Virus record (IMG/VR): IMGVR_UViG_3300005529_001108
Span: 1-46,242 of that record
Reading direction: 5' to 3' (one strand)
Origin: a virus
Length of the DNA stretch: 46,242 nucleotides
A program made the position numbers and the translations under genes. Below the pieces are notes generated by a model. That model ran no database searches and was not told the origin of the DNA. It saw nothing but the letters and a program-made list of their open reading frames with translations. The stretch's first letter is position 1; each line of letters starts with the position of its first letter. Below are positions 1 through 46,242 of this stretch, in pieces.

Positions 1-729
1 CTACGATTGCTCGGCACAACTGATTGCCGGTTTTGGACGCCAGTAAAGCAGGACGCTTAAATTTGTGACTGCATGGAACAGCATCCCTGTCGCCAACGTT
101 CCAGTGACGAGAAAAATGCTTGTAAATATCAGCCCAGTAATTCCAGTAACAACGGCCCCCTTTCCACCTTGATAGATGTGGTGAAGGCCGAAAATGACAG
201 CGCTGCAGATTACTGCTGGCAGAAGAGGAACGTGAAATGGGAATGTGTGCAGGTATCGGATTACGAAGCCTCGCACCAAAAGTTCTTCTGAAATCGCTGC
301 GGTCACGGCAAGCGCCGCATACCAGCGGCGTTCGATGGCAGATGCGGGAAGAACAAATCTCAGCGGGCGCAACTGCGCCATCTCAATGTAGCGTAGCTTC
401 CTGTACTTAACGGTGACCTGCGTGACCGGCAACAGCCATTGCAATATTGCGAAAAGCAGAAATACAACCAGCAGAGTCCACCACAACCACGAGCGCCGTT
501 CGAGCAACGGCTCATGAATTCCGACACCTTTCGCGGTGAACAGTGCGTTAAAACCAACGGTGGCACACGCTATGGTCGCGGACAGTGCGAGTATCGCAAT
601 CGTCTGAGCGTAATACCGGAGTCTCGCTTTCGATGTTGATGCCGCTTTGAGCGCCCGCGTGTCCCACCAGTCCCACACCGGGGAGACGACGATTAGCAAG
701 ACCGCTAGCAGATTGTCGATGCTAAGCAT
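1..729 (-). CDS. CPBP-family intramembrane metalloprotease
   Basis: A 242-residue polytopic membrane protein of the CPBP (CAAX protease and bacteriocin-processing, Abi) family. The three family motifs are visible: EELLVRGF (EExxxR, about residue 147), FGLHH (about 180) and HAVTN near the C-terminus (about 218), which together bind the catalytic metal within the membrane. Several hydrophobic segments surround them. Family members cleave prenylated or peptide substrates in the membrane or act in bacteriocin self-immunity; the substrate here cannot be told. It stands alone, with a 234-bp gap upstream and the window edge directly at its stop codon. Complete as seen. Confidence 0.85.
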   Translation of the reverse strand: MLSIDNLLAVLLIVVSPVWDWWDTRALKAASTSKARLRYYAQTIAILALSATIACATVGFNALFTAKGVGIHEPLLERRSWLWWTLLVVFLLFAILQWLLPVTQVTVKYRKLRYIEMAQLRPLRFVLPASAIERRWYAALAVTAAISEELLVRGFVIRYLHTFPFHVPLLPAVICSAVIFGLHHIYQGGKGAVVTGITGLIFTSIFLVTGTLATGMLFHAVTNLSVLLYWRPKPAISCAEQS

Positions 730-963
730 TGCGTCACACCATTCTCACGCGCATCGCCGAAATTCCGGGTTCATCGCGAATCGGTCGGAGTTTATCACTA
801 ATCTTCAAACATAGTGGGTGAGCAAACGCTTCTCACGGGCGAGCTCACCCGCCACGATTTGTGAGACGTGGAAAGACGAACCAGTCGAATTTTTTACATG
901 CTATGTGAGACAAGCGGGGCGAAAAGTAGATTCGCCGAGCCGAGCCTCCTATTTCACACACGA

Positions 964-1361
964 CTATTCGGCCGACTGGCCTTTGCTTTGGGCGATGCGG
1001 GAGATGAGCTGGAGCAGGCGCTCGGAACCGCTTCCATGTAGCAGGTCGGCCTCCTGGACCAGCTCATCGACAGAGCCGCGACGCAAAGAAATAATGGCGC
1101 CGCGCTGCAATGTTTTTCGGAACTCTTGCGCGAGTTGCCGTCGATCGGCGCTGGGGATGGAGCGGCCGAGCACGAAGATTTCGACGTTCCCTTCACGAAA
1201 TGATCCAGAGCTGCAATGCCGATTACGGAGGCCACGTAATAGCCCTCGCGTTCCAGCAACATGTGGCGGGTGCGCAGCAGAATCTTACTCGGACGCGCAA
1301 AGGATTCTTGTCTTGGGCTCTCGAGACGCGAACGCGGGGTTGAGAAGAGGAAGGAAGACAC
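964..1361 (-). pseudogene. Decayed receiver-domain (CheY-like) gene
   Basis: Pieces of one receiver-like protein lie in different minus-strand frames. The segment HMLLEREGYYVASVIGIAAL is in one frame; from about position 1190 the sense continues one frame over (EGNVEIFVLGRSIP, then SADRRQLAQEFRKTL and RGAIISLRRGSVDEL) to a stop at 964. A second break near 1300 separates a plausible N-terminal strand (TRILCASE) from the rest. The layout, a beta strand followed by LLEREGY, then a strand ending in GRSIP, is that of short stand-alone receiver proteins common in Acidobacteriota. At least two frameshifts make it a pseudogene. Start is approximate. Confidence 0.6.
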
Positions 1362-1438
1362 GGGTGATAGTTAACATGATTATTTACTTGACCAAAGTTA
1401 GTAGAGGGCTGCATAATACCGTCCATGGAAGTCAAGCC

Positions 1439-1564
1439 TCACTTCTTCTTGGGTTTGGGCGGATTCGAAGCCCGCATCTGCCGTCGCAAATCCTTCTTGA
1501 TTGAGGCAATCAGTCTGCGCGTCGGAACCCGCTTTAGCTGCTCTCTCTTCTCTTTTTCGTCCAT
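1439..1564 (-). CDS. Possible 41-residue basic peptide
   Basis: A short ORF starting with MDEKEKREQLKR and ending in KPKKK, very rich in Lys and Arg. It starts 12 bp from the GTG of the divergently read transposase, so the two could share a regulatory region. No convincing ribosome binding site and no recognised family. It could equally be chance coding in the left flank of the insertion element. Confidence 0.25.
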   Translation of the reverse strand: MDEKEKREQLKRVPTRRLIASIKKDLRRQMRASNPPKPKKK

Positions 1565-1575
1565 GGGGGTGCCCT

Positions 1576-2466
1576 GTGACCATCCTAGATATTCAGAACG
1601 TTTTCGATACGGATACCAAGTGCCGCGAACTGCTCTGCCGTTTGCGTTGGCCGCATGGCGCTGAGTGTCCACGGTGCCACGGTAAAGCTGTCGAACTGGA
1701 AACCGCGAAACAACTGTTCTACTGCAAGGACTGTGATTATCAATTCACGGTTACTGCTGGCACGATCTTTAATGATTCCCATCTCCCTCTTAATACTTGG
1801 TTCGTTGCTGTGCTGTTGCTCGTTGAAGCGCGTAAGGGTTTCTCTGCTAACCAGATGAAGCGAACCTTGGGAGTAAGTTACAAAACCGCGTGGTATCTCT
1901 GTCATCGTATCCGCGCTGCCATGGCTAGCGCAGAACGTACCATGCTTAGCGGTGTTGTCGAGATGGACGAAACCTATATCGGCGGTCGCAAACGCGGGAT
2001 GGGTCGTGGGCCGCACGGCAAGGGAAAACAGATCGTGGTTGCCATTAGGGAACGCGGCGGTGAGGTTCGTTTCTTCCGGGCGGAGGACGCCAAGAGCGGT
2101 ACTCTGGCGAAGTATATTGCCGATAACATCAGCAAAGATGTGGAGTGCATCGTAACGGATGACTTCAAAGCTTACCCCGCTGCCCTTGCGGAGAACGATT
2201 TCACCGAGAACCATTTCACCATCAACCATAGCCGGGAAGCGTACGTTAACGGGCCGATTCACACGAACACAGTTGAAAATGCATTCTCCCTGTTGAAGCG
2301 CGGCGTCATCGGCACGTGGCACAAGATTAGCGCGAAGCATCTTCCCGCCTATCTTGCGGAGATGGAATTTCGCTTCAACCGTCGCAAGCGTCACGATTTA
2401 TTCCTCGATACTTTGCGCCACATGGTTACTGCAGACCCTCTGACTTTTGAACGTCTGACGGCTTAA
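1576..2466 (+). CDS. IS1595-family (ISXO2-like) transposase
   Basis: A 296-residue DDE-type transposase. The N-terminus is a zinc ribbon (CPRCHGKAVEL then FYCKDCDYQF), followed by a helix-turn-helix region (SANQMKRTLGVSYKTAWYL) and the ISXO2-like catalytic domain with the acidic motifs EMDETYIGGRKRG and VTDDFKAY and the C-terminal HTNTVENAFSLLKRG. This order is the standard layout of IS1595-family transposases. GTG at 1576 is chosen because the protein homology begins there (VTILDIQN); no in-frame ATG fits. The reading frame is intact. No terminal inverted repeats could be found by eye on either side, and its 3' end overlaps the convergent Ntn-hydrolase gene by 41 bp. Confidence 0.88.
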   Translation: MTILDIQNVFDTDTKCRELLCRLRWPHGAECPRCHGKAVELETAKQLFYCKDCDYQFTVTAGTIFNDSHLPLNTWFVAVLLLVEARKGFSANQMKRTLGVSYKTAWYLCHRIRAAMASAERTMLSGVVEMDETYIGGRKRGMGRGPHGKGKQIVVAIRERGGEVRFFRAEDAKSGTLAKYIADNISKDVECIVTDDFKAYPAALAENDFTENHFTINHSREAYVNGPIHTNTVENAFSLLKRGVIGTWHKISAKHLPAYLAEMEFRFNRRKRHDLFLDTLRHMVTADPLTFERLTA

Positions 2467-3355
2467 CCTCCTGCTGCTGCGCCGCTTTTGTGCGTTCTTG
2501 TACAACCTTATCTACATACTTGCCAACTTCTCTCTGAGTCTTCGCAAGAATGCGCTTGTTCGATTTAGTAATCCTCTGGTACACGGTTTCGAGGTAAGCA
2601 ATATGTTGGTCTTCGATCTTTGCGAACGAACCAAGTCCGGGGCCTATCGTAACCATGTCGGTTTCTTTCCCTACACCGGGAGCCACTTCCGCGCGCTTCT
2701 TCGCTGTGTAGACAAGCAGAGCAGTATCCGATTCATTATTCATTGGGGAATGACCCGCTAACATGATTTGCGATTCGGCATGCGACTTACCAATTCCCAC
2801 GGCTGCAAACCCCGCCGTCGTAAGTAGTGCTGGCTTGTCGCCATCTAGGGCGTACAGTTGCGGATAGATGAGCTTTTCTCCGGTCTTGATGTTCGATGGG
2901 CCATCCTGATCTATTCCCATGATTATCGCTTCCAGTTGGCTATCGAACTGAAAAGAACTCAGCCTTCCAGCAAGGTCGGCAACCACTTCCGGAGACATGC
3001 TGGCCTGAGTAGCTAGAAACGTTTGTAAATCTAATCCGTGCGGGCTTAATACCTGGGCCTCAGCCCGCTCGCGCAACAAAGCACGAAATTCCTTCCCGTA
3101 GATAGAAACGACATCCCGAACGTTGACCCATGTTTTCGGATCGGCAACGATCCAATCAATGACCTGTTTGTGAACGCGCTTAAAAATCTCGGCTTGAATT
3201 CCAGCATCGCCAGCTATTAAAGCGCATATAGACGGTGTTAGCAGCCAGACCTTTGCTTGCGCTGGTTCAAACTCGATATCTCCCGCAGTCAACATTCGGT
3301 CTGAAGCGCCAATCAGAATTGACTTCTTGGCTACAGCAGCCACGCATACTGTCAA
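2426..3355 (-). CDS. Proteasome-beta-like Ntn hydrolase
   Basis: A 309-residue protein whose first 60 residues look like a proteasome/HslV beta-type Ntn fold: (M)TVCVAAVAKKSILIGASD, then RMLTAGDIEF and a strand ending in IAGDAG. TTG at 3353-3355 is chosen as start because a perfect AGGAG lies 7 nt upstream (3363-3367); Met removal would expose Thr as N-terminal nucleophile. Counting from that Thr, Asp18 and Lys34 fall within one residue of the catalytic Asp17 and Lys33 of 20S beta subunits. A longer TTG-started frame (to 3412) is less likely. The C-terminal third is helical and Lys/Gln-rich. Substrate unknown; it may be a cytoplasmic peptidase or amidase. The end overlaps the convergent transposase gene. 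Confidence 0.7.
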   Translation of the reverse strand: MTVCVAAVAKKSILIGASDRMLTAGDIEFEPAQAKVWLLTPSICALIAGDAGIQAEIFKRVHKQVIDWIVADPKTWVNVRDVVSIYGKEFRALLRERAEAQVLSPHGLDLQTFLATQASMSPEVVADLAGRLSSFQFDSQLEAIIMGIDQDGPSNIKTGEKLIYPQLYALDGDKPALLTTAGFAAVGIGKSHAESQIMLAGHSPMNNESDTALLVYTAKKRAEVAPGVGKETDMVTIGPGLGSFAKIEDQHIAYLETVYQRITKSNKRILAKTQREVGKYVDKVVQERTKAAQQQEVKPSDVQKSEGLQ

Positions 3356-3408
3356 TGGTCGTCTCCTGCGCAGTGCGGGTTTTACGGGTACCCGCACCCG
3401 CTTAACCC

Positions 3409-3636
3409 TCAATTGGCACCACCCTTCCGATGCCTAGAGGCACACTGCTCCGCTATGAGACTTTTGTCAAGTGAATAATCATGATAGTTAACCGGCTTAA
3501 CCAGGTACGCGTCGATGCGGGCGCGAATGCCCTCGACCGCCGGTTCCACCGCAGAATATCTAGTGATAACGAAAATGTCGGATCTCGGGTTGGCATTCCG
3601 CATCGCATGAACGATCGTATGACGTTTACTCGTCAC
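3409..3636 (-). pseudogene. Truncated response-regulator receiver fragment
   Basis: The frame encodes the C-terminal half of a CheY-like receiver: VHAMRNANPRSDIFVITRYS (helix 3 and strand 4) and AYLVKPVNYHD (strand 5 with the conserved Lys-Pro). The half carrying the phosphorylated Asp is missing, and after PVNYHD the sequence diverges. The only available start is a GTG inside the domain. It is therefore a remnant rather than a working regulator. It is unrelated in sequence to the receiver remnant at 964-1361. Confidence 0.6.
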
Positions 3637-3645
3637 TCACCCTGG

Positions 3646-4419
3646 CTAATAATGGTCCTTGAAGAAGCGCTCACCGATTTTGGTTCCATCGGGGAATCTT
3701 CCTTCTTTTTGTTCCTTTCGTAGCTGTTCGCGAACCAAGAGAAGAGTCGAGCGGGCAACGGACGTGATTGGGGCGCATCGCGAATACCACGACGCGAGCC
3801 ACTGGCGATGGTATGCGAAAATAGCGTAGTCCTGACCCTGTGGCTCGGGTGGGGGGACTGGGCGAGTGCTTTCAATGATCTTCAGCCAATCACCCTCAAC
3901 CTCAATCTGCCACCAGGCTGTTATATGACGGCGGTATTCTGACATGGCAGCAGGCACTTCGAACAGTTCCCAGAAGAATGCGTCCCATTTATCGATTGCA
4001 AGGTTTTCGTGAAACCATGTCCGCAGGGTAGCGGCTAACTTCGCACGCAAACCTGCCCCCGAGCGGCCGTTATAGAGTTTCCTTGCTCTGTCGAGGGCCT
4101 TGCGGCGAGCCCTGATCAGCGCAACAGCTTTCTTCAATCCCATTCCATCGAACTGATCCTGCGCCCCAACGGGCACCTTGGCAAATAAGAGAAAATCTCT
4201 GAACCGCTTTCCTGACATGCTTAGACACCGCGCCAACTGTAATTCTGTGTAGCGCGGCAGCAATGCGTCGCCTCTTCTGCCGCGCTGAAACCGGTTGAGT
4301 GCTGGCCACTCGTGAATCAGCGCCTGGACTTCAGGGTCCGCTTTGACCTGCTCAACGGGAACTTTCCCTCTTCCTGAGTTGCGACCTGGATGCTGTTTTC
4401 TTTTTCTGGAGCGAGACAT
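3646..4419 (-). CDS. Hypothetical basic protein, 257 aa
   Basis: Not recognised. The protein begins with a strongly basic tail (MSRSRKRKQHPGRNSGRGK), then has a segment resembling a helix-turn-helix (YTELQLARCLSMSGKRFRDF, residues about 57-76), an Arg/Lys-rich helix, and Trp-rich regions (WQIEVEGDWLKIIE). The C-terminus is charged. The initial ATG is intact and composition looks coding. The putative HTH and basic tail hint at DNA binding, but that is inference. It lies upstream of the receiver fragment and may mark the inner part of an element ending at the integrase. Confidence 0.5.
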   Translation of the reverse strand: MSRSRKRKQHPGRNSGRGKVPVEQVKADPEVQALIHEWPALNRFQRGRRGDALLPRYTELQLARCLSMSGKRFRDFLLFAKVPVGAQDQFDGMGLKKAVALIRARRKALDRARKLYNGRSGAGLRAKLAATLRTWFHENLAIDKWDAFFWELFEVPAAMSEYRRHITAWWQIEVEGDWLKIIESTRPVPPPEPQGQDYAIFAYHRQWLASWYSRCAPITSVARSTLLLVREQLRKEQKEGRFPDGTKIGERFFKDHY

Positions 4420-4931: not shown

Positions 4932-5162
4932 ATGATCTTGTCCCCGTGGTTAACTGCTGCGGAGGCCAGCGCTTATTTGAAGATCCCCCGCCGCACGTTG
5001 CTTGAGTGGGTCCGTCGTGGTCAGATCCAAGCTTTCAAGTTGTCCGGAACCAAGCGGCACATCTGGCGGTTCAAGCAGGAGGATCTCGATTCCGCCTTGG
5101 TCACAACCGCGCCGCAAACGATTAAGGTGCTACAATCCCGCACGTCATCCGCGGTCCACTAG
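4932..5162 (+). CDS. Excisionase-like HTH (MerR/HTH_17) protein
   Basis: A 76-residue winged-HTH protein: LTAAEASAYLKIPRRTLLEW (helix-turn-helix), then VRRGQIQAFKLSGTKRHIWR (wing) and FKQEDLDSAL. This is the helix_turn_helix_17/excisionase pattern, used both for recombination directionality factors and small regulators. ATG at 4932 is preceded by AGGAG (4919-4923). It sits directly before the integrase: its TAG (5160-5162) overlaps the integrase ribosome site AGGAGG. The lambda-like xis-int arrangement suggests it directs excision by bending DNA at att. Confidence 0.8.
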   Translation: MILSPWLTAAEASAYLKIPRRTLLEWVRRGQIQAFKLSGTKRHIWRFKQEDLDSALVTTAPQTIKVLQSRTSSAVH

Positions 5163-5169
5163 GAGGAAT

Positions 5170-6291
5170 ATGAAAAGGACCGCAAAGCACGGGCGTGGTT
5201 CGCTAGTGTACGACACACGCAGGAACGTATGGCAGTATTTCTGGTACGAAGCTGGGAAGAGGCACTCGAAAGTCCTCGGTACCAGACTCGATTACCCAAC
5301 CAAAGCAAGCTGTTGGCGAACCATTGAGGCCGAACATCCACCTCTCGTCACAACGACGGAGCAACCCACGCTGAGAGAAGTGGCTGAGCGTTTTAAGGCG
5401 GAAAGAATGTCGAACCGGCATTCGCACCGGCGCGTCAGCTGCAGCTTTCTCAAGAATCATGTACTTCCACGCTGGGGTGCAACGCCGATTGACCGGGTTC
5501 AGGCACGGGAGGTGGAGCTTTGGCTGAAAGCCACCAGCCTTCAACCGAAAACGAAAGCTCACCTGCGCAGCATACTGTCTTCTCTGATTGACTTCGCTAT
5601 GTGGTCGAACCTAATTCCGGCGAAACTCAATCCGATGAGCTTGGTGCGGATCCAGGGCGTCAGTAAACGGGCTCGGAAGCCACGCATTCTAACCGTCGAT
5701 GAGTTCCATCAGCTCGTTGATCAAATGCGCGAGCCGTCTCGAACGATTGCTCTCGTCTGTGTTTGCCTCGGCTTGAGAATCAGTGAAGCCTTAGCTCTGC
5801 GCTGGGAGGATGTTGATTGGCTTGGCTCAAAGCTCAGCGTTCGGCGAGCTATCGTCGAACAACATGTGGATGAGCCGAAGACTGCCGGCTCGACTGCAAC
5901 GTTTCCATTGTCGGCTGAGCTGTTGTCCAAGCTGCAGCTCTGGCGGCGGTCGACGGAGTTTTCTGCTGACAGCGACTGGATGTTTGCTTCCCCGGTGAAG
6001 ATCGGCCGCTTGCCGTACTCCTACACGGGCGTGTGGCGAGTGCTGCAGGAGGCCGCGCGAAAAGCAAATCTGGGCAAGCTGGGTACGCACTCGTTTCGGC
6101 ACACCTACCGCAGCTGGCTGGGGTCAGTCGGGACACCACTCGAGGTGCAACAAAAGGCGATGCGCCACACCGACCTGCGCACGACCATGATTTACGGGAG
6201 TGTGGAGGATGGGAGAATCGACGAGGCTTTGGAGAAGGTTTCGAGCTTGGTTTTCGCCAACAGCACGCAAACAGCACGCAGGAGCTCGTAA
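5170..6291 (+). CDS. int: Tyrosine recombinase / integrase
   Basis: A 373-residue phage-type integrase. An N-terminal arm-binding-like domain (GSLVYDTRRNVWQYFWYEAG) is followed by a SAM-like core-binding domain (about 65-160) and the catalytic domain. Catalytic residues are visible: Arg in LGLRISEALALRW (about 203), a Lys in the beta hairpin DEPKTAGS (about 237), His and Arg in THSFRHTYRS (about 307 and 310), His in AMRHTDLRTT (about 333) and the Tyr nucleophile in MIYGSV (about 342). ATG at 5170 follows AGGAGG and is preferred over upstream starts within the excisionase gene. It reads toward the att-like site at 6305, as lambda int reads toward attP. Intact. Confidence 0.92.
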   Translation: MKRTAKHGRGSLVYDTRRNVWQYFWYEAGKRHSKVLGTRLDYPTKASCWRTIEAEHPPLVTTTEQPTLREVAERFKAERMSNRHSHRRVSCSFLKNHVLPRWGATPIDRVQAREVELWLKATSLQPKTKAHLRSILSSLIDFAMWSNLIPAKLNPMSLVRIQGVSKRARKPRILTVDEFHQLVDQMREPSRTIALVCVCLGLRISEALALRWEDVDWLGSKLSVRRAIVEQHVDEPKTAGSTATFPLSAELLSKLQLWRRSTEFSADSDWMFASPVKIGRLPYSYTGVWRVLQEAARKANLGKLGTHSFRHTYRSWLGSVGTPLEVQQKAMRHTDLRTTMIYGSVEDGRIDEALEKVSSLVFANSTQTARRSS

Positions 6292-6304
6292 CCTGTTGAA
6301 AATA

Positions 6305-6321
6305 TGGCTCCTCAGGTAGGA
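6305..6321. other. Probable att core (tRNA 3'-end identity segment)
   Basis: The 17 nt TGGCTCCTCAGGTAGGA are the reverse complement of TCCTACCTGAGGAGCCA, which has the form of the 3' end of a tRNA (second half of the T stem, acceptor stem and CCA; closest to bacterial tRNA-Asn from memory). It lies 13 bp beyond the integrase stop. The adjoining bases to about 6339 resemble a T arm and a tRNA 5' end with the middle deleted, so no intact tRNA is present. The same stretch can also fold as a GGCTCC/GGAGCC hairpin, an alternative explanation. Confidence 0.5.
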
Positions 6322-6423
6322 ATCTAAGCTACTGGAGCCTCTGTACGACAGTCCAGCCTGTGTTTTACAGCCTGAAATCAGCATTTGCACCTCTCTCCTT
6401 CGTTCCGAATGTTTGCCCGGCCT

Positions 6424-6452
6424 GACGGATTTCGCCCGAAATTCCGTCTTTT
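6424..6452 (+). terminator. Rho-independent terminator after integrase
   Basis: GACGGATTTCG (6424-6434) pairs with CGAAATTCCGTC (6437-6448), one bulged T, followed at once by TTTT. This fits an intrinsic terminator for the rightward xis-int transcript, 130 bp beyond the stop codon. Confidence 0.65.
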
Positions 6453-6542
6453 CCGTCTTTCAGATTCTGCCTCACGAGAGGGTGTTTGACACGATTTCCT
6501 TTCTGGAAATAAAAAGGCTTCCACTCGAACAGCCTCAGCCAC

Positions 6543-7880: not shown

Positions 7881-9098
7881 TCACTTCGTGGAACTCGCAA
7901 CGGAAGAACGGGATAAAGGGAGTTTGAAGTTGTCTAGTGGTTCATTCTGTCCGTTGTTTAACCGGATTGCCACTCCGCCTGAAGCAGTCGGGTAAAGCAG
8001 AATGTGAAAATGAGCGTCGTCTTCCCGCTCTGTGACGTTGAGATACCCGATACGGGAATGTATCCACTGATACGGCAGTACGTACGCCTCGTCTCGCCCG
8101 ATGCAGCCAAGAACATATAAGCCCTGATTCGCATCACCTAAAAACTCATCCCAGTCGGAGTGGTAAGCGTACCAATACCCACCATCCCCATACTGTTTTG
8201 AGATGGTGACAGCAACGCGCAGAGCCTTGTCCGCACTCCAATACAACGCTCGGCTCTTTTTCACTAGAGGTGAGTACGCCGAACTAAGTGACTGTACAAT
8301 ATTGCCTCGAAGGAGCGTAATCGCTTCAGGCGATGTATGATGCTGCTTGACCTCAGCCTCCGTTTCGCCCTGTGGCGGTTCGGAGCCTCCAGCCTGTTCC
8401 TCCTTGAGCGCAGACGTCGCATCTTCTGCTACCGTGAATGCAATCTCGATGATTTTGTCCAGCTTTGTGTACTCGAAGGGGATGAGTAATTCATGGATCT
8501 TTGCAACCGAATCTAGCTCGCTGTTCTCTTTTAGGGTGACGAGCTTGGCTAAAGCGTCGGCACTAATCATTCGCACAGTCCACGCATGTTTTGAGCCGCG
8601 AACCTGTGCTTCGAGGTCGCCAGTATCCTGCCTACCAACAACAATCAGAATTGACGATTCAATGGTGATCTTCTGAGTAGCGATGAGTGTGTCTCGATAT
8701 CTCGATATTGTGTCCAGATTTATGCGATAAGCATCTGACGTCTTAACTTCAACAACAACGTGATAGCCCCCGCACTCATTCCAAAGGCCATCGAACCCAA
8801 CTGCGTTGCTCTTTCCCTGATAAAGCCCATTTTCTACTGTATAGTCGAGCCGCTTGCCAAACTCGTTAACGATATCCTGCAAAACGAACCCGCTGCGATC
8901 GAATGAGCTTTGGAGGCAGGTCTGCAAGTATTTCTGCAAGTTCTCGCTCTTCGCAATCTGAAGATATTCGCGTAGATCGCGTGAGCACTCGGAATTGTCC
9001 GAGAGTTTGCCATTTCCACAGAGGGCGACAATTTGCTCAACAGAGAGCGAATCGACTTGTGCGGGATCGTTCTTGAGGAGTGTAAGCAGTGGTTTCAT
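7881..9098 (-). CDS. PD-(D/E)XK nuclease in Kiwa-like operon
   Basis: A 405-residue protein with a restriction-endonuclease-like core: GFDGLW (Asp103) and, 14 residues on, VVVEVKTS (Glu117, Lys119), the D...ExK catalytic pattern, followed by an amphipathic helix with DTISRYRDTL. Residues 150-230 hold ILIVVGRQDTGDLEAQVRGS, a conserved-looking strand-helix unit. A Glu/Gly-rich linker (about 235-265) leads to a separate C-terminal domain of about 140 residues with aromatic strands (YWYAYHSDW). ATG at 9098 is chosen over the GTG at 9107; it lies 12 nt after the KwaB-like stop, so the three genes form one operon. I infer it is a DNA-cutting or DNA-binding effector of the system. Confidence 0.7.
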   Translation of the reverse strand: MKPLLTLLKNDPAQVDSLSVEQIVALCGNGKLSDNSECSRDLREYLQIAKSENLQKYLQTCLQSSFDRSGFVLQDIVNEFGKRLDYTVENGLYQGKSNAVGFDGLWNECGGYHVVVEVKTSDAYRINLDTISRYRDTLIATQKITIESSILIVVGRQDTGDLEAQVRGSKHAWTVRMISADALAKLVTLKENSELDSVAKIHELLIPFEYTKLDKIIEIAFTVAEDATSALKEEQAGGSEPPQGETEAEVKQHHTSPEAITLLRGNIVQSLSSAYSPLVKKSRALYWSADKALRVAVTISKQYGDGGYWYAYHSDWDEFLGDANQGLYVLGCIGRDEAYVLPYQWIHSRIGYLNVTEREDDAHFHILLYPTASGGVAIRLNNGQNEPLDNFKLPLSRSSVASSTK

Positions 9099-9110
9099 TT
9101 CTCTCACTCT

Positions 9111-10019
9111 TCATTGAGTTCGAATTCTGCTGCGACTGGAGGCACGGAATGATTCGGGGGAGCCTTTGATCAGTTCGATTTGGTAGAGTCGACGATCCAG
9201 AACTCCGAGAAAATCCATAATGGAACTCTCTTCGACTGTGAGCTTACCCTTGACGTCCTCCACTTTGACTCCCGTACTCGCGCAGAGTTTCTTTAGAGAA
9301 TTCTTGTCAATGTCCTTGGTTTCCTTTTGCACGCGAATTGATGCCAAATAGCGTGCAGCGCGTGGGTGAGCAGAGGCATACGTCTCGATCGAACTGAAAT
9401 CGACGTATGGCAAATCGGCCTGTATAAGCTTCACATTCCCTGGTACCGCTCCCAGAATGGCATCCTGAAGTTCGCCCACGAATTCGAACCCGCTGGGTCT
9501 CAGGATGTAGACATCGGTATTGTCAATCAGCATGTCGAAGTCATTATCCAGTTTAAACACCTTGTCTTCGACGATCCGTAGCGCATCAGTTGCTAGCCTG
9601 ATTAGGCGGCTCCTCAAAATGCCCTTGAACGTTGTGGCCCTTCGAACACCTGTGAGTCGTCGCCCTTTGCCAAACGTCAGGCGCGTAAAGTAGCAGAAGA
9701 CTTCGGACGGATCTTCAAGTACACGCCCATCCATGGGCAAATTGTCGGCTTCGTGAATTGCACGCAGCTGTGACGCTAATTCGTCAGTCAAAAGAAGGTG
9801 CAAGTGCTCAGTCGAGCCATATTTCTCGGAAGGCTCATATTCTGAGGGCTTCTCAGTTATTGCACTCATCTCGTCTCTTGTTGCCGTGACCATTTCACGA
9901 AGGGCCTCCTGGACGTTCGCATCAACCGGCACCATCACGAAACGTTGGCCTTTGCCATTTTCCAGTCCGACTCCAAACTCGGTGGTAGCAGCGTTTTCAG
10001 GATCGAGTCTAGGTGTCAT
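9111..10019 (-). CDS. kwaB: KwaB-like (DUF4868) Kiwa defence protein
   Basis: A 302-residue protein I assign to the DUF4868/KwaB family, the soluble half of the Kiwa anti-phage system. Supporting blocks, in order: FKGILRSRLIRLA (about 131-143), VFKLDNDFDMLI (154-165), YILRPSGFEFVG (171-182) and HPRAARYLASI (218-228), the usual DUF4868 pattern of a strand pair reading 'D-F-D...V-Y-I-L...F-E-F' followed by a helical C-terminus. Length matches KwaB (about 300). Its ATG overlaps the stop of the KwaA-like gene (ATGA at 10016-10019), which couples their translation. In the studied Kiwa system KwaB acts with membrane KwaA to sense infection and block phage DNA replication. Assignment is by motif memory only. 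Confidence 0.72.
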   Translation of the reverse strand: MTPRLDPENAATTEFGVGLENGKGQRFVMVPVDANVQEALREMVTATRDEMSAITEKPSEYEPSEKYGSTEHLHLLLTDELASQLRAIHEADNLPMDGRVLEDPSEVFCYFTRLTFGKGRRLTGVRRATTFKGILRSRLIRLATDALRIVEDKVFKLDNDFDMLIDNTDVYILRPSGFEFVGELQDAILGAVPGNVKLIQADLPYVDFSSIETYASAHPRAARYLASIRVQKETKDIDKNSLKKLCASTGVKVEDVKGKLTVEESSIMDFLGVLDRRLYQIELIKGSPESFRASSRSRIRTQ

Positions 10020-10738
10020 CCCTCGACCTCGAAATAAACTGAGTCGCTCAATCGATACGCGATGATGTGCTCGTCCGCTAACAAGGAGACTCTAGAGGTG
10101 ATTAACACTTGGCTTGTTCTGCCACTGTAAGCATTCTCGTCCTTGGGCGGCGAGATTGTAAACACGCGATAACCCCGCACGGCGAAAATCAGGTTCATAT
10201 AATGGAGGTTGAGATGCCAGAACAGAAAGACCACGAAGCCAAGTGCAGAAATGAGAGCTGCGAAATCTCTCCATGTTCCCGTATCGATTGGATAGAAAGG
10301 CAACAGCATCGCAAACAGGTACACAAGAAGGTGGTCTCGGTGATCCTCTGCTGAGCCGACAACAAGTTCCCTTTTTTCTTGTAGCCGTCTTGCAGTTCTG
10401 ATTCGTAGCCACAGAAACAAATTTGGAAGTATTACCATGGCGACGCAAAAGCTAATGAGGTAGCGATCAGGGATCAACTTGCTGCCACGGATAGCCCAGA
10501 GCAGGAACAAAGGGGAGATACTACTCAGTACCATCAGCAGCCGCGCTGTTTTCAAGCCTTCGCTCTGCACGCTTTTTGTCACCTGAATGCCACGGTTCAG
10601 GGTATCAAGAACAGCATCCGCGCAGATGCAAGGATACGCCTCTGGCGAATAAAAAGCGAATATGCTACGCTTGGAGAAATGGACGAGGGGCGTAAACGCG
10701 TAATACTGATTGCGGCTGCAATTCTCGTCGCTCGCCAT
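10016..10738 (-). CDS. kwaA: KwaA-like four-helix membrane protein
   Basis: A 240-residue protein with four predicted membrane spans at about residues 65-84 (LLMVLSSISPLFLLWAIRG), 93-113, 136-151 (LLVYLFAMLLPFYPID) and 157-180, flanked by soluble N- and C-terminal parts. The stretch around LLPFYPID and the fourth helix ending in MNLIFAVRGYRVF match the general look of KwaA-type proteins, which have four spans. The 60-residue N-terminal part and 45-residue C-terminal part are additions compared with a minimal KwaA as I recall it. ATG at 10738 is preferred to the GTG at 10762; no strong ribosome site is seen. First gene of the three-gene operon. Confidence 0.65.
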   Translation of the reverse strand: MASDENCSRNQYYAFTPLVHFSKRSIFAFYSPEAYPCICADAVLDTLNRGIQVTKSVQSEGLKTARLLMVLSSISPLFLLWAIRGSKLIPDRYLISFCVAMVILPNLFLWLRIRTARRLQEKRELVVGSAEDHRDHLLVYLFAMLLPFYPIDTGTWRDFAALISALGFVVFLFWHLNLHYMNLIFAVRGYRVFTISPPKDENAYSGRTSQVLITSRVSLLADEHIIAYRLSDSVYFEVEG

Positions 10739-10866
10739 CTGAAGAATCCCGAAGACCTGCACAATTCAAGACCGAGTCCGCGGACAGAATCGCTCATCGC
10801 TAGTGCTGTTCAATGGGCCGAACGCATCATGCGTCGGATTGATGGTGTGTTTCCAAAGTAAATCGC

Positions 10867-12360
10867 TTACGGCTGGGTGCCTCCTGCAAGTGGCTTTCGC
10901 GATCTGAGCCATTCAAAAACGGCCCATGTGGCTGCGAGGTCTTCCTCGTTGTAGGTGAGGATCTCACCCATCAGATCATCCCTCTTCTTTTTGTCTTCGG
11001 TTTCGGTGGCTTCAATGAATGTAGCCATCGCCCAGTCCCCACCGTACTCATCCTGCGTGCGCTTGAAACCCACGTGACTTTCCACAACTTTCAAGCTGTA
11101 GCTCGGTAATGGGAGTACAACAGATGCCTTAGTCAAAGGAAACAGGTCGCACAAGTTAGCCAGCACTCGGTCTGCTATCCCGTCTGGATCTCCGTAGCGT
11201 TTCTTGTACTTCGATACGTAGGTTTTCTCATAGCTCGCCCAGTGGACGAATGGAAGGTCACCGTATTCATCAAAAAGACCCTTCGCAATCTTGAGAAATG
11301 AGTCCCAGCTTTCCCGATCACCATCAACACCAAAGCCAGACACCGCAGCCTTGAACTTGCTTGGCTTCTCTCCGAAGACCTGCATGCCCCATAAATACAC
11401 CTTGTCGATTTCGTTCAGATGAGGTGGCATTCCTTCCAAGTCGAACATCACGTAATTCGGGGAAGAAGGAATTGCAGGAGAACTCAGGATCAGCTCCTGC
11501 CCTCGTTCAAGAACCTCGGCTTCACGCAAGATGCGCTCCGCTGCCTTTCCAACTCGCACCATCTTGCCTGCGCGTGGACGCTTGTATTCGCTCAGCGTCG
11601 GGACGTCGAAACGATTAATGAGGTCTCTTCGACTGACGACTCCGTCAGCATGGAGCGTTCGTGCGAGTGACTGATCGACATCTGGTATGAGGGCGATGTC
11701 CGTCACATCTACAGCTGCTTTCCAGCAAGGTTCGTAATACCCACAGCCACCGCATTTACTCCATCCGACAGGCTCATATGGTTGGGCTGCTAAAAGTTTT
11801 AATGCCAAGATTTTCCGCAGTTCCTGCAAGGCTGCTGCACCGCCATCGTATCGCACCCCAACAATCGCACCCGTGCCAGCGTGAACCTCCAGTGCCTTCG
11901 GCCGCAGGCCGCAAGTTTTCTCGTACAGCCACCCATATGCCTGCACTTGTAGAAGGATTTCCGGATGCTGCTCCTCATCTATGTGAAGGGACAGCTTCGA
12001 ATCCCGAATCCGGTAATCGTTTCCATCCAAAATCAGATAATCTGGTGTTCCGACGATTGCGACATCGACTCCGTCGATCTGACAAGCATGGACGAACGCG
12101 GGCTGGTATATAACAGCTGCCTTCGTTGCGATTGCCTTCAGAGTCTCTTTTACCCGATCCTGCTCGGGAACCCGGCTCAAGTCCACGTACGCGCCGAGTG
12201 TCTTCAGGTGCTGCGCCTCGTGTCGCATTCCCAGCCTACGCAGCACCTCGTCAAATGGGCCGGGTTCCGCTTCGGGAGCGTCCTTGTAGCGCAAATGGAC
12301 TCGCAATTCACAAGGGGTGGGCCGATGTAAGGTAATGATCTCGGACGCAATAAGGCGCAT
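10867..12360 (-). CDS. TM0106-family RecB-like nuclease with RNase H-like domain
   Basis: A 497-residue two-domain nuclease. The N-terminal half is a RecB/Cas4-like PD-(D/E)XK domain: TPDYLI (Asp107), RDSKLS (Asp120, Lys122) and the QxxxY-type motif LLQVQAYGWLYE. Cys17 and Cys203, Cys206, Cys212 (KCGGCGYYEPC) are placed to bind a 4Fe-4S cluster as in Cas4 and AddB. The C-terminal half is a YprB/DnaQ-like RNase H fold with VMFDLEGMPP as its first acidic motif and NEEDLAATW as its last. This pairing defines the TM0106 (TIGR03491) family. GGAGGAG precedes the ATG. Role is probably DNA processing; its place between defence genes suggests an accessory nuclease. Confidence 0.88.
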   Translation of the reverse strand: MRLIASEIITLHRPTPCELRVHLRYKDAPEAEPGPFDEVLRRLGMRHEAQHLKTLGAYVDLSRVPEQDRVKETLKAIATKAAVIYQPAFVHACQIDGVDVAIVGTPDYLILDGNDYRIRDSKLSLHIDEEQHPEILLQVQAYGWLYEKTCGLRPKALEVHAGTGAIVGVRYDGGAAALQELRKILALKLLAAQPYEPVGWSKCGGCGYYEPCWKAAVDVTDIALIPDVDQSLARTLHADGVVSRRDLINRFDVPTLSEYKRPRAGKMVRVGKAAERILREAEVLERGQELILSSPAIPSSPNYVMFDLEGMPPHLNEIDKVYLWGMQVFGEKPSKFKAAVSGFGVDGDRESWDSFLKIAKGLFDEYGDLPFVHWASYEKTYVSKYKKRYGDPDGIADRVLANLCDLFPLTKASVVLPLPSYSLKVVESHVGFKRTQDEYGGDWAMATFIEATETEDKKKRDDLMGEILTYNEEDLAATWAVFEWLRSRKPLAGGTQP

Positions 12361-12378
12361 AGAACTCCTCCGAGTAAC

Positions 12379-12415
12379 TGCGTGGCGTCGATGATAAGCG
12401 AGTGCGTGGCGTCGA
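12379..12415. promoter_or_regulatory. 13-bp direct repeat in divergent intergenic region
   Basis: TGCGTGGCGTCGA occurs at 12379-12391 and 12403-12415, a 24-bp period, between the divergent RecB-like nuclease and restriction-enzyme genes. Spacing slightly over two helical turns puts both copies on one DNA face, as for a controller-protein operator. The regulator is not identified. Confidence 0.35.
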
Positions 12416-12512
12416 GACTGTGACCTGGATCACGGTCGAAAGTCGCGGGAACCGTATGGCGTCTTCTTGATTCCCTTGAGCTCATGGATTACGCTGGGAC
12501 GTATTCCGCCAT

Positions 12513-13493
12513 ATGGCACTTTTTGGCAACACACCTAGCGAAAATGTAACAGACCTAACTGTCGAGGTCTTTCGGCTAATTCGCAAGACTTTCTGGAATG
12601 ACGCCGGGCAGTCCATCGCATGCACGCTCCGCATCAAGGGAATCAATCAGGACGACCCTTTGGATGAGTACATTGTGAAGGTAGCCCAAGAGAATCTCCC
12701 GAAGAATGCAACCGCCGTTCGCAGCTTGACACGTGGGAAGCAAAATACCGGTTCCCTAACATGCCCAGATTTCGTTGTTTACCGTCCAGAGTTATGTGCT
12801 GGGCAATCTCAGGCAGTTCTTGCAATCGATTTGACCCGAATCGTCGGAATCGAAGTCAAAAAGCTTGATTTTGTCGCTGGTAAACAGAACCGTGATAAAG
12901 CCATGGACTTCAATTCAACTCCTCCGTGTGGCACGATTCGCGTTTACAGCAACAATGACGAACCGATTGACATCCGCGGGTTCTACTTGTTTGTTCAGCA
13001 GGAGGCACTACCGAACGGCCAAGTTCGTTTTCCAGCAATGACACTTTGTGACGGAAACCTCCTCAACAAAGATCGTGTTCTATATCTGAAAACGATCGGA
13101 GCAGTAGAGGGAGCACGGAAGAAAGAAATTGGCCTAGGCACTTTCGCCGACGGAGCAAACCGAAACAGACCGATGATCGTATTCCCGAATCCGCTCAGCG
13201 CGGAAGTATTGAAAGGAAAATTCACTCTGGTTCACTCAAGCAGCGAACTGGCGAACGCATATCCTGACCTTTTCAGAGTGGGGCGAATCACTCGAACTGA
13301 GACGACTACTCCTCAACCGGGCACGGAAAAACAAACCGTGCTACATGAGTTTCATTGCTATCAGTCCAAGCGAGATACCCGAGCGGGGGTCGCTCCGTTT
13401 GACGTGCATGATCCCATAAAGCACCCAGAAGGTAGAACCGAAAGAGTGCAAGGGAGAGGCCACTTTCGCATCGCAATCAAGCCGACAGACTAG
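12513..13493 (+). CDS. Putative type II restriction endonuclease
   Basis: A 326-residue protein with a PD-(D/E)XK arrangement: SLTCPDFVVYRPE (Pro85-Asp86) and IVGIEVKKLDF (Glu114, Lys116), followed by MDFNSTPPCGTIRVY and IRGFYLFVQ, which place a substrate strand after the catalytic core. It converges on, and overlaps by 3 bp, the DNA methyltransferase gene, the classical layout of a type II restriction-modification pair. Recognition sequence cannot be predicted. The ATG at 12513 is the first plausible start, without a strong ribosome site, which would suit low expression of a toxic nuclease. Confidence 0.7.
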   Translation: MALFGNTPSENVTDLTVEVFRLIRKTFWNDAGQSIACTLRIKGINQDDPLDEYIVKVAQENLPKNATAVRSLTRGKQNTGSLTCPDFVVYRPELCAGQSQAVLAIDLTRIVGIEVKKLDFVAGKQNRDKAMDFNSTPPCGTIRVYSNNDEPIDIRGFYLFVQQEALPNGQVRFPAMTLCDGNLLNKDRVLYLKTIGAVEGARKKEIGLGTFADGANRNRPMIVFPNPLSAEVLKGKFTLVHSSSELANAYPDLFRVGRITRTETTTPQPGTEKQTVLHEFHCYQSKRDTRAGVAPFDVHDPIKHPEGRTERVQGRGHFRIAIKPTD

Positions 13494-15745
13494 ATCGCCT
13501 TCAGGAGACCATCGAGAATTGGTTGAACGCTAGACTCTCCTACGACGGCTGTGGCGGTTGGCTGCGTATGACCGGCATCTTGAGTAGACGACTGCCCTTT
13601 GTACAAAGACTCAATTTGCGCCGCAAGCAAACTGGTGAAGTCCTCGCATGTAGACTGCTGGAGCGTTCGAATATGACTGTGAACCTTCAGGAATTCACCC
13701 ATGAGGATCACTCTTATATCGCCCCGAGAAAGTCTCGTCCCGATGCGGTTGTATCGCAAGACGAAAGAACTCGCTTCTGCCACACACGAATTAAGGAAAT
13801 CCCTTGTCACACCCTGATCGTTCGCAGAAAGATGCCTGCAAACTACGATCAAATCTATGTCGATCGGCTCTTTGGCTTGGTTTTTCGGGGTCGCACCAGA
13901 CATTTCGGCTTTCACGGGATGGGTTACTACAACTTCCAAACCGGCACTTTCTATTGCTTTTGCTAGCGCGAGCCAAGCCTCATTGCGAGAATGATGAAAC
14001 GTAAAAGCTAGTCTGCCTCCCCGCTTCAACACGCGAGCACATTCGACAAAAACATCTCCTAGCCGTTTACCGAACTCAACCGAGTTCTTGTCCTGTACTT
14101 CTGAAGAATGCCGAGTCGTTTCAGCATCGAACGCTTGATCGTTCCCCTGCATCCCAATTCTTAGCCAGCAGTAAAAGAAATCGGCCAACTCAGAATAATG
14201 CACGTTGTCGAAGTATGGCGGGTCTGTAATAACCAAATCGACGCTCGCGTTAGGGATCATGGGCAATTTGCTTGAATCCCCCTGTAATAGCAAGACCTCG
14301 GCATCTTGCTTCACAAGCTCGCTGAAGTTACGTGCGAAGCGGGGTTGGATCGGCTTGTTGATTTTGAAAACCTTTTTGCCCACGACCTTCCCTGCTGTGT
14401 TGCTTGCTAGCTGTAGCTCAAATGGATCCGAGCAGTAGCGTATGGCACTAATCAAACGACGCTCGAAAAGAGTTGAGAACGAACCGCTGCTCTTTGCTGT
14501 GCCCCATGGATTTGCTTCGAGCGGAACACGTTCGGGTTTCAGGATGTGATGATGAAAAAGATGACGAACTGCTCCCGTTCCCTCTCCTTTGAAGGAACAG
14601 AACATATTATTGAACTCCAGAAGTCCCGAAAAAAGCAGCAAAAACATCTCTCTGACTGCGCTATTCGGCTCTCGCAGGATTCCGGACAGCAGTATGCCTA
14701 GGGCATACAACTGACGCGCATTGAACATCTGACTCCAATGATGATAGTTGTACGCTCTCGCCTGATCCGTATTGTGACCAGGCGGGATTGATGTGTTTGG
14801 AATGGGAAATGTCCCCTCTCGAAGTCTACGTTCGGCTTCGGCGTATAAGGCGTGATCGTCGCTGTCCGGTTTCTTGTACACCTTTGTTCCATCAGGCAAC
14901 AACAGCATCAGCGCGTACATGTCATGTTGCGGGATCGAACCCGATGCGCGACAGACGGACAAAATTGAGGATTCCTTTTCACAACTTTCGCAGCGGAAGT
15001 TTTGTCCTCGTACAGGCCCACTTTGCGGATCAAAAACCCACGAGCACTCTTTGCAGCGTGCTTCGCTGTCTGAGTACGCAATTTTGTTCACTTCGCCACA
15101 CTTTGGGCATAATGCCTGAGACTCTGGCTTGCGCGTTGGATATGCGTTACTAGCGAAAATCCAGCTATCAAACAGCCTTGTTTTGGCATTGCACGACGGA
15201 CACCTTAAGGTCTTTACCCAGAAGGTGTACAAGACATCAGCAGAAACAGCATCATACGTAGACTTGTACACCTCGCGGATCTTGGGTGCCACGTCAGATC
15301 GAAGACGATCGTAGGCCAGTCGGAGCAACGATTCGTCGCACCCTTCAAGTGCTTTGCGTACTTGAAAATACGCAACTGGGTTGATGTCACATCCAACAGC
15401 GCGGCAGCCGAGTTTTAGTGCTTCGCCAATGGTTGTGCCACTTCCCATGAAGCAGTCCAAAACAACGCAGTCCGAGAAGTCATGCTCCCGGTAGAACTCC
15501 GCCCATAGATCAGCCTCGGGTGGCAGATTACCCGCTAAAATCATGGCTCGAAATACAGAACCGAGCCGCGTGGCCCACCACTTGTGAACGTGATAGAGGG
15601 GACGATTGACTTCTTTACGCCAACTCTCCAATTCGGCGATTGGGTTCAATTGCTCGAACGGCAGAGGAACATCGAGTGCAGTTCTCCCAGAAGGGTCTTC
15701 AGACACGTCTCCAGACCTCTCTCTTTCAGAATGCTTAAATATCAT
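13490..15745 (-). CDS. Zn-ribbon DNA adenine-type methyltransferase
   Basis: A 751-residue DNA methyltransferase. The AdoMet-binding motif VLDCFMGSGTT (97-105) comes first and the catalytic motif TDPPYFDNVHYSELADFF (DPPY 508-511) last, the beta-class order. Between them lie four CxxC pairs (about 182/185, 213/216, 231/234, 252/255), two zinc ribbons, and a helical region. N-terminal RPLYHVHKWWATRLGSVFRA matches the COG1743 (DUF1156-type) adenine-specific methylases. DPPY suggests N6-adenine, though N4-cytosine cannot be excluded. The length, about twice a simple modification enzyme, leaves room for its own target recognition. Paired tail to tail with the restriction enzyme, it would protect self DNA. 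Confidence 0.85.
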   Translation of the reverse strand: MIFKHSERERSGDVSEDPSGRTALDVPLPFEQLNPIAELESWRKEVNRPLYHVHKWWATRLGSVFRAMILAGNLPPEADLWAEFYREHDFSDCVVLDCFMGSGTTIGEALKLGCRAVGCDINPVAYFQVRKALEGCDESLLRLAYDRLRSDVAPKIREVYKSTYDAVSADVLYTFWVKTLRCPSCNAKTRLFDSWIFASNAYPTRKPESQALCPKCGEVNKIAYSDSEARCKECSWVFDPQSGPVRGQNFRCESCEKESSILSVCRASGSIPQHDMYALMLLLPDGTKVYKKPDSDDHALYAEAERRLREGTFPIPNTSIPPGHNTDQARAYNYHHWSQMFNARQLYALGILLSGILREPNSAVREMFLLLFSGLLEFNNMFCSFKGEGTGAVRHLFHHHILKPERVPLEANPWGTAKSSGSFSTLFERRLISAIRYCSDPFELQLASNTAGKVVGKKVFKINKPIQPRFARNFSELVKQDAEVLLLQGDSSKLPMIPNASVDLVITDPPYFDNVHYSELADFFYCWLRIGMQGNDQAFDAETTRHSSEVQDKNSVEFGKRLGDVFVECARVLKRGGRLAFTFHHSRNEAWLALAKAIESAGLEVVVTHPVKAEMSGATPKNQAKEPIDIDLIVVCRHLSANDQGVTRDFLNSCVAEASSFVLRYNRIGTRLSRGDIRVILMGEFLKVHSHIRTLQQSTCEDFTSLLAAQIESLYKGQSSTQDAGHTQPTATAVVGESSVQPILDGLLKAI

Positions 15746-45814: not shown

Positions 45815-46242
45815 GCACTCACCTTCCTTTCCGCATCGTACTTATCAAGCTCGCGACGCAGCTCGTCGTGGTGGCATTCGGGGCACATCTCATCAGCCCA
45901 GAAGACTTCACTGTGCTCCTTGCAGAAGGATGCACCGTTCTCAACAGCCTCTACCTGCTCCGGAGTCATCTTGATCTTCCGGATATCATCAGCAGGATCG
46001 AGACCACGCTTGCCCATCTCGGTAATGATCATGCACAGTGGCAAACCCATCGGGATATCGTCCGCTGCCGCGAACAAATCGATGTCAGACAGGGTTCCCG
46101 GCCAGTTGCGGTACCACAGCACCTTTTCAACTACCTTCAGAAAATGCTCATCCACGTCGTGTGCTTCGACGTGGGTTTCAGCAGCCAAGACAGCCAGCAA
46201 CATTGGCGTAGAGAGACACTTCAGTGTCGATGCGAAGGACAT
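45811..46242 (-). CDS. Phage early protein with CxxC, 143 aa (starts at window edge)
   Basis: A 143-residue protein whose first ATG coincides with the last base of the window, so a longer N-terminus outside is possible. It starts MSFASTLKCLSTPMLLAVLA, is mostly helical (EAHDVDEHFLKVVEKVLWYR) and ends with a zinc-type site (SFCKEHSEVFWADEMCPECH) followed by an Arg/Glu helix. Unrecognised. It begins the leftward string of early genes visible here. Confidence 0.55.
   Translation of the reverse strand: MSFASTLKCLSTPMLLAVLAAETHVEAHDVDEHFLKVVEKVLWYRNWPGTLSDIDLFAAADDIPMGLPLCMIITEMGKRGLDPADDIRKIKMTPEQVEAVENGASFCKEHSEVFWADEMCPECHHDELRRELDKYDAERKVSA

Follow-up and report, generated by a model that had tools for sequence, protein, structure and literature searches.

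A tRNA-Asn-derived attachment core beside a tailed-phage region is probably a chimeric site between two stacked mobile elements

In attachment sites (attP) of the lambda/P2 type, the integrase gene reads toward a core that is flanked by arms, and xis lies upstream. Tandem accretion of elements at tRNA genes is already well documented. At tRNA-Lys, IME_Sag2603_tRNAlys provides a 'chimerical attI' site, and the integrases involved are distantly related (PMC5704250). Stacks of elements have also been described for the AICEs at tRNA-Arg in Streptomyces (PMC9513070) and for the tandem ssrA islands in Dehalococcoides (PMC3146451). We analysed a whole stretch of viral DNA of 46,242 nucleotides (IMG/VR record IMGVR_UViG_3300005529_001108; the window), in which a 17-nt copy of a tRNA 3' end lies between an integrase gene and a tailed-phage region. 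We propose that this core is probably a chimeric att site, formed by site-specific accretion, which joins two mobile elements stacked in one tRNA-Asn gene. From left to right the window contains the following.

1-729, minus strand: CPBP/Rce1-like intramembrane protease, host-like (PF02517), its stop codon at the record's first base
954-3636, minus strand: decayed host-like response-regulator remnant, tentatively assigned by a weak match (PF00072 fragment, E=0.0036), split by an IS1595-type transposon
3646-4419, minus strand: ORF of no known family, adjoining xis; a search for relatives found none
4932-5162, plus strand: excisionase-type HTH protein, xis (HTH_17; TIGR01764 excise)
5170-6291, plus strand: tyrosine integrase, int (PF00589, 6e-22; PHROG integrase), the sole integrase in the record
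6292-6304, unstranded: P' spacer from the int stop to the CCA, T-rich past the CCA (flank comparison)
6305-6321, minus strand: att core, an exact match to the last 17 nt of tRNA-Asn(GTT), with the CCA at 6305 toward int
6322-6332, minus strand: degenerate continuation into the tRNA T arm, 8/11 nt
6322-6460, unstranded: attachment arm (P arm) of the right-hand element, with CAGCCTG-type repeats and a hairpin block
7881-15745, unstranded: cargo on the phage side (KwaB/KwaA, nuclease, methyltransferase)
9111-10019 and 10016-10762: Kiwa anti-phage system, KwaB/KwaA, between the attachment arm and the late genes
10679-10861, plus strand: small ORF of 60 aa, opposite to the adjacent Kiwa genes, 78% identical to an ORF of the L021 island described below
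10867-12360: nuclease, beside Kiwa
13490-15745: methyltransferase, beside Kiwa
15966-46242, minus strand: tailed-phage late and early genes (tape measure, terminase, major head protein, DnaB-like helicase), with no integrase and no tRNA

The core, TGGCTCCTCAGGTAGGA, was found exactly once in the 46,242-nt window, at 6305-6321. Many viral and proviral records have tRNA-Asn(GTT) genes whose 3' end is its reverse complement, TCCTACCTGAGGAGCCA, and a scan of viral contigs returned the same 17-mer in 28 stretches, many of them inside tRNA-Asn genes called by ARAGORN. Identity to the tRNA-Asn(GTT) 3' end is complete on the minus strand (17/17, CCA included). When the comparison was extended over the T arm (6305-6332), 25 of the 28 nucleotides matched, compared with a best of 17-21 for shuffled sequences. 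The preliminary description had reported a 17-nt copy of a tRNA 3' end, with CCA, 13 bp past int, and we observed that this copy is exact, single-copy and derived from tRNA-Asn(GTT). No second copy with up to three mismatches was present anywhere in the window; at that tolerance, 0.07 copies would be expected by chance. The shortness of the match is the one point that favours a chance likeness between these 17 nt and the end of a tRNA. Against it stand this low expectation, the agreement through the T arm, the position of the core at the int stop codon and a homologous arm next to an identical core in another record, L021. We regard its probability as negligible, and ruled out a chance origin on the uniqueness of the core, the T-arm match and the L021 alignment.

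The int ORF is unbroken and spans the PF00589 domain from end to end. It reads toward the core, and 13 bp separate its stop from the CCA side. In two records with an intact tRNA-Asn (G003 and G006), the distance between integrase stop and CCA is 26 and 25 bp, and the integrase gene again reads toward the CCA. As the orientation is the same and the gap similar, we placed int as the true P' neighbour of the core. The earlier statement that int reads toward att is thus consistent with these records, since the CCA faces int here as it does beside an intact tRNA. Past the CCA the window has TATTTTC, and other elements using tRNA-Asn have TTCTTTT and similar sequences. The locus therefore combines two features of an att site of a tRNA-targeting tyrosine integrase, a core made of a tRNA 3' end and an adjoining tyrosine integrase gene. 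As a single query, int retrieved no relatives from the viral and genome collections. A direct repeat, CAGCACGCA, lies at 6259-6279 inside the 3' end of int; it differs from the right arm's CAGCCTG repeats and is a candidate P' arm-type site.

No tRNA gene was detected in the window, and the tRNA body is also missing to the right of the core. A finished attL would carry the tRNA body on that side, so the site is not a simple boundary between element and host. Instead, positions 6304-6460 of the window aligned with 681-836 of L021 (81% identity over 157 bp, E=5e-36). In L021 this arm closes a 2.57-kb island (681-3272) that lies between two tRNA-Asn cores of the same orientation. The first core is joined to a related phage (tape measure 44%, other proteins 27-46%), and the second is followed by a host ECF sigma-factor gene (PF04542). 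Because the right flank of our core is an attachment arm in L021, the core in the window bears arms on both sides, in the order P-core-P'-int. The L021 island lacks an integrase; it has a Xis-like HTH gene together with a membrane-protein-like ORF, and is possibly mobilised in trans. L021, in which two cores stand in tandem next to a phage related to this one, provides a precedent for accretion at tRNA-Asn, weakened by the shortness of the record, for which misassembly is conceivable. The P arm had no match among phage records, and looser patterns of the arm and its hairpin block returned L021 only, together with apparent chance matches, mostly in coding sequence. The hairpin at 6424-6450 was also considered as a terminator; this was unconvincing (z -1.5), and it was absent from the matches of the terminator scan. 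The missing tRNA body and the arm of another element on the right do not agree with the simple layout of the preliminary description, a left element that ends at the core against non-element DNA.

A single core copy with an arm to either side, the missing tRNA body and the sole integrase are, on the other hand, also what the intact attP of a lone temperate phage would show; int, xis, core, cargo and phage would then form a single genome, free or circularly permuted. The order of late genes, attP and int is the classical one. The ends of the record argue against this reading. Read on the minus strand, ORF 1-729 has its stop codon at base 1, and an ATG starts at base 46,242. Among 30 whole records, exact gene boundaries were observed at both ends of the window and of G027, and at the integrase end of G017 and G031; in the other 26, one end only (L059) coincides with a gene boundary, probably by chance. 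In geNomad, genes set the limits of a provirus, which is extended to integrases or tRNAs in its vicinity (PMC11324519). Since both ends fall exactly on gene boundaries, like those of cut proviruses, we take the window to be a piece of a longer contig, perhaps trimmed by geNomad.

The DNA beyond int and xis also differs from what a single phage genome would be expected to hold. Past xis and ORF 3646-4419, probably the left element's last gene, no phage module could be recognised, and PHROG matches were limited to the CPBP and transposase genes. This region looks like decayed host DNA, with the CPBP protease and the split response-regulator remnant. The IS1595-type element (1366-3492; 2,107 bp, with similar terminal repeats) is flanked by a 10-bp target duplication, GATAGTTAAC, at 1366 and 3483. 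It carries a passenger ORF (2426-3412) that was earlier called Ntn-hydrolase-like and has no family match. Tetranucleotide use in the left 4.9 kb differs from that of the phage part (correlation 0.44-0.66), and the left 6.3 kb had no match among plasmids.

Decay, disruption by the IS and the lack of a far attR in the window are also consistent with a rearranged remnant, in which deletion, homologous recombination or transposition would have brought a decayed fragment with integrase and attP next to a prophage unrelated to it and left an inactive site. The unbroken int, with PF00589 covered end to end, does not look decayed, and the exact core and a P arm that is 81% conserved with L021 argue for a functional site. 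We consider such a remnant quite improbable.

The relatives of the phage bear on the origin of int. Relatives of its terminase in viral contigs include G017 (69%), G027 and G031. G017 is collinear with the window. It starts with a host FAA-hydrolase gene, followed by an orphan tRNA-Asn core (1004-1020) in the same orientation, and then by cargo, minus-strand late genes, early genes and, at the far right, an integrase whose stop ends the record. The integrase is at the right end in G031 and at the left end, facing outward, in G027. None of these three has an inward-facing integrase across the core toward the phage; their integrases face outward at the record edge, a layout that argues against the single-phage attP. 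From this placement, the integrase of the window's own phage is expected just past 46,242. Alignment of the terminase with genome contigs gave distant prophages only and no close lysogen, and no helicase relatives were found. A further locus, G020 (L076 5930-9225), has the same shape as the window, with P2-like tail genes, core, convergent int, xis, an AbiE toxin-antitoxin pair and regulator genes; it fits accretion and attP equally and is equally ambiguous. In G020 the integrase frame crosses the att core, and the tRNA copy encodes its C-terminus.

Taken together, these data favour accretion in a tRNA-Asn gene. In the proposed sequence of events, island B, comprising int, xis and ORF 3646-4419, would first have integrated into the tRNA-Asn 3' end to give tRNA-core-P'B-intB. 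A newer prophage A, carrying the defence cargo including Kiwa and an integrase of its own, would then have recombined its attP with the occupied site, the attL of B. The outcome on the minus strand would read tRNA-core-intA-phage-cargo-PA-core(6305-6321)-P'B-intB-xisB-decayed host DNA. The two arms of the core would thus belong to different elements, int (5170-6291) would be that of B, and the integrase of A and the intact tRNA would lie past 46,242.

Several points count against accretion, among them the weak response-regulator match and the shortness of L021. The record has no tRNA, no second core and no second integrase or resolvase within its 46,242 nt, and the predicted right end would lie outside it. 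The far attR of B was not found in the window; it would have been lost or would lie at a distance. Finally, a free temperate phage would ordinarily show late genes-P-core-P'-int around its attP as well, and the cyclic order of G017 is alike. A core copy to the right of the phage block, with none to the left, would not separate the models, as it is also expected with two stacked elements. An attP in an unintegrated molecule, which the preliminary description had offered as its alternative, thus gains from the arms on both sides and the missing tRNA body and loses from the gene-bounded ends and the host-like DNA on the left; it is the main rival, although we consider it unlikely. The earlier view that int is foreign to the right-hand phage is favoured, in a form other than its simple version, by the G017 integrase at the opposite end, the stacking in L021, the gene-bounded cut and the host-like DNA past int and xis. 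Therefore, the visible int is probably not the phage's own.

Under accretion, int and xis should not be assigned to the phage of the window, the Kiwa cargo goes with the phage or the right-hand element, and provirus boundary callers merged two elements. The data also point to tRNA-Asn as an accretion hotspot, in an uncultured host group, for prophages and islands, including one island without integrase. The hybrid site may even be active, so that the island integrase would move the prophage and its Kiwa cargo, or P-arm islands without integrase as in L021, in trans. We think this very unlikely; it would amount to a partnership of phage and defence island for mobilisation at tRNA-Asn.

The proposed arrangement resembles the accretion of ICEs, IMEs and CIMEs in tRNA 3' ends, where elements with distantly related integrases are stacked on one tRNA target, with hybrid att sites between them and decayed neighbours (PMC5704250). 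It differs in that the newer element in the window would be a tailed prophage that carries defence genes, and in that the tRNA end would lie outside the record. In the Streptomyces AICE and Dehalococcoides ssrA stacks, the end of the RNA gene likewise recurs as a direct repeat between successive elements, and some of the islands, like that of L021, have no integrase. Those stacks occur in other hosts with other cargo, and they consist of conjugative or mobilizable islands rather than prophages. With the attP of lambda/P2 type, the window shares an integrase gene directed toward an arm-flanked core and an upstream xis. Such an attP is split by integration in a lysogen, whereas the site in the window is unsplit in seemingly chromosomal DNA.
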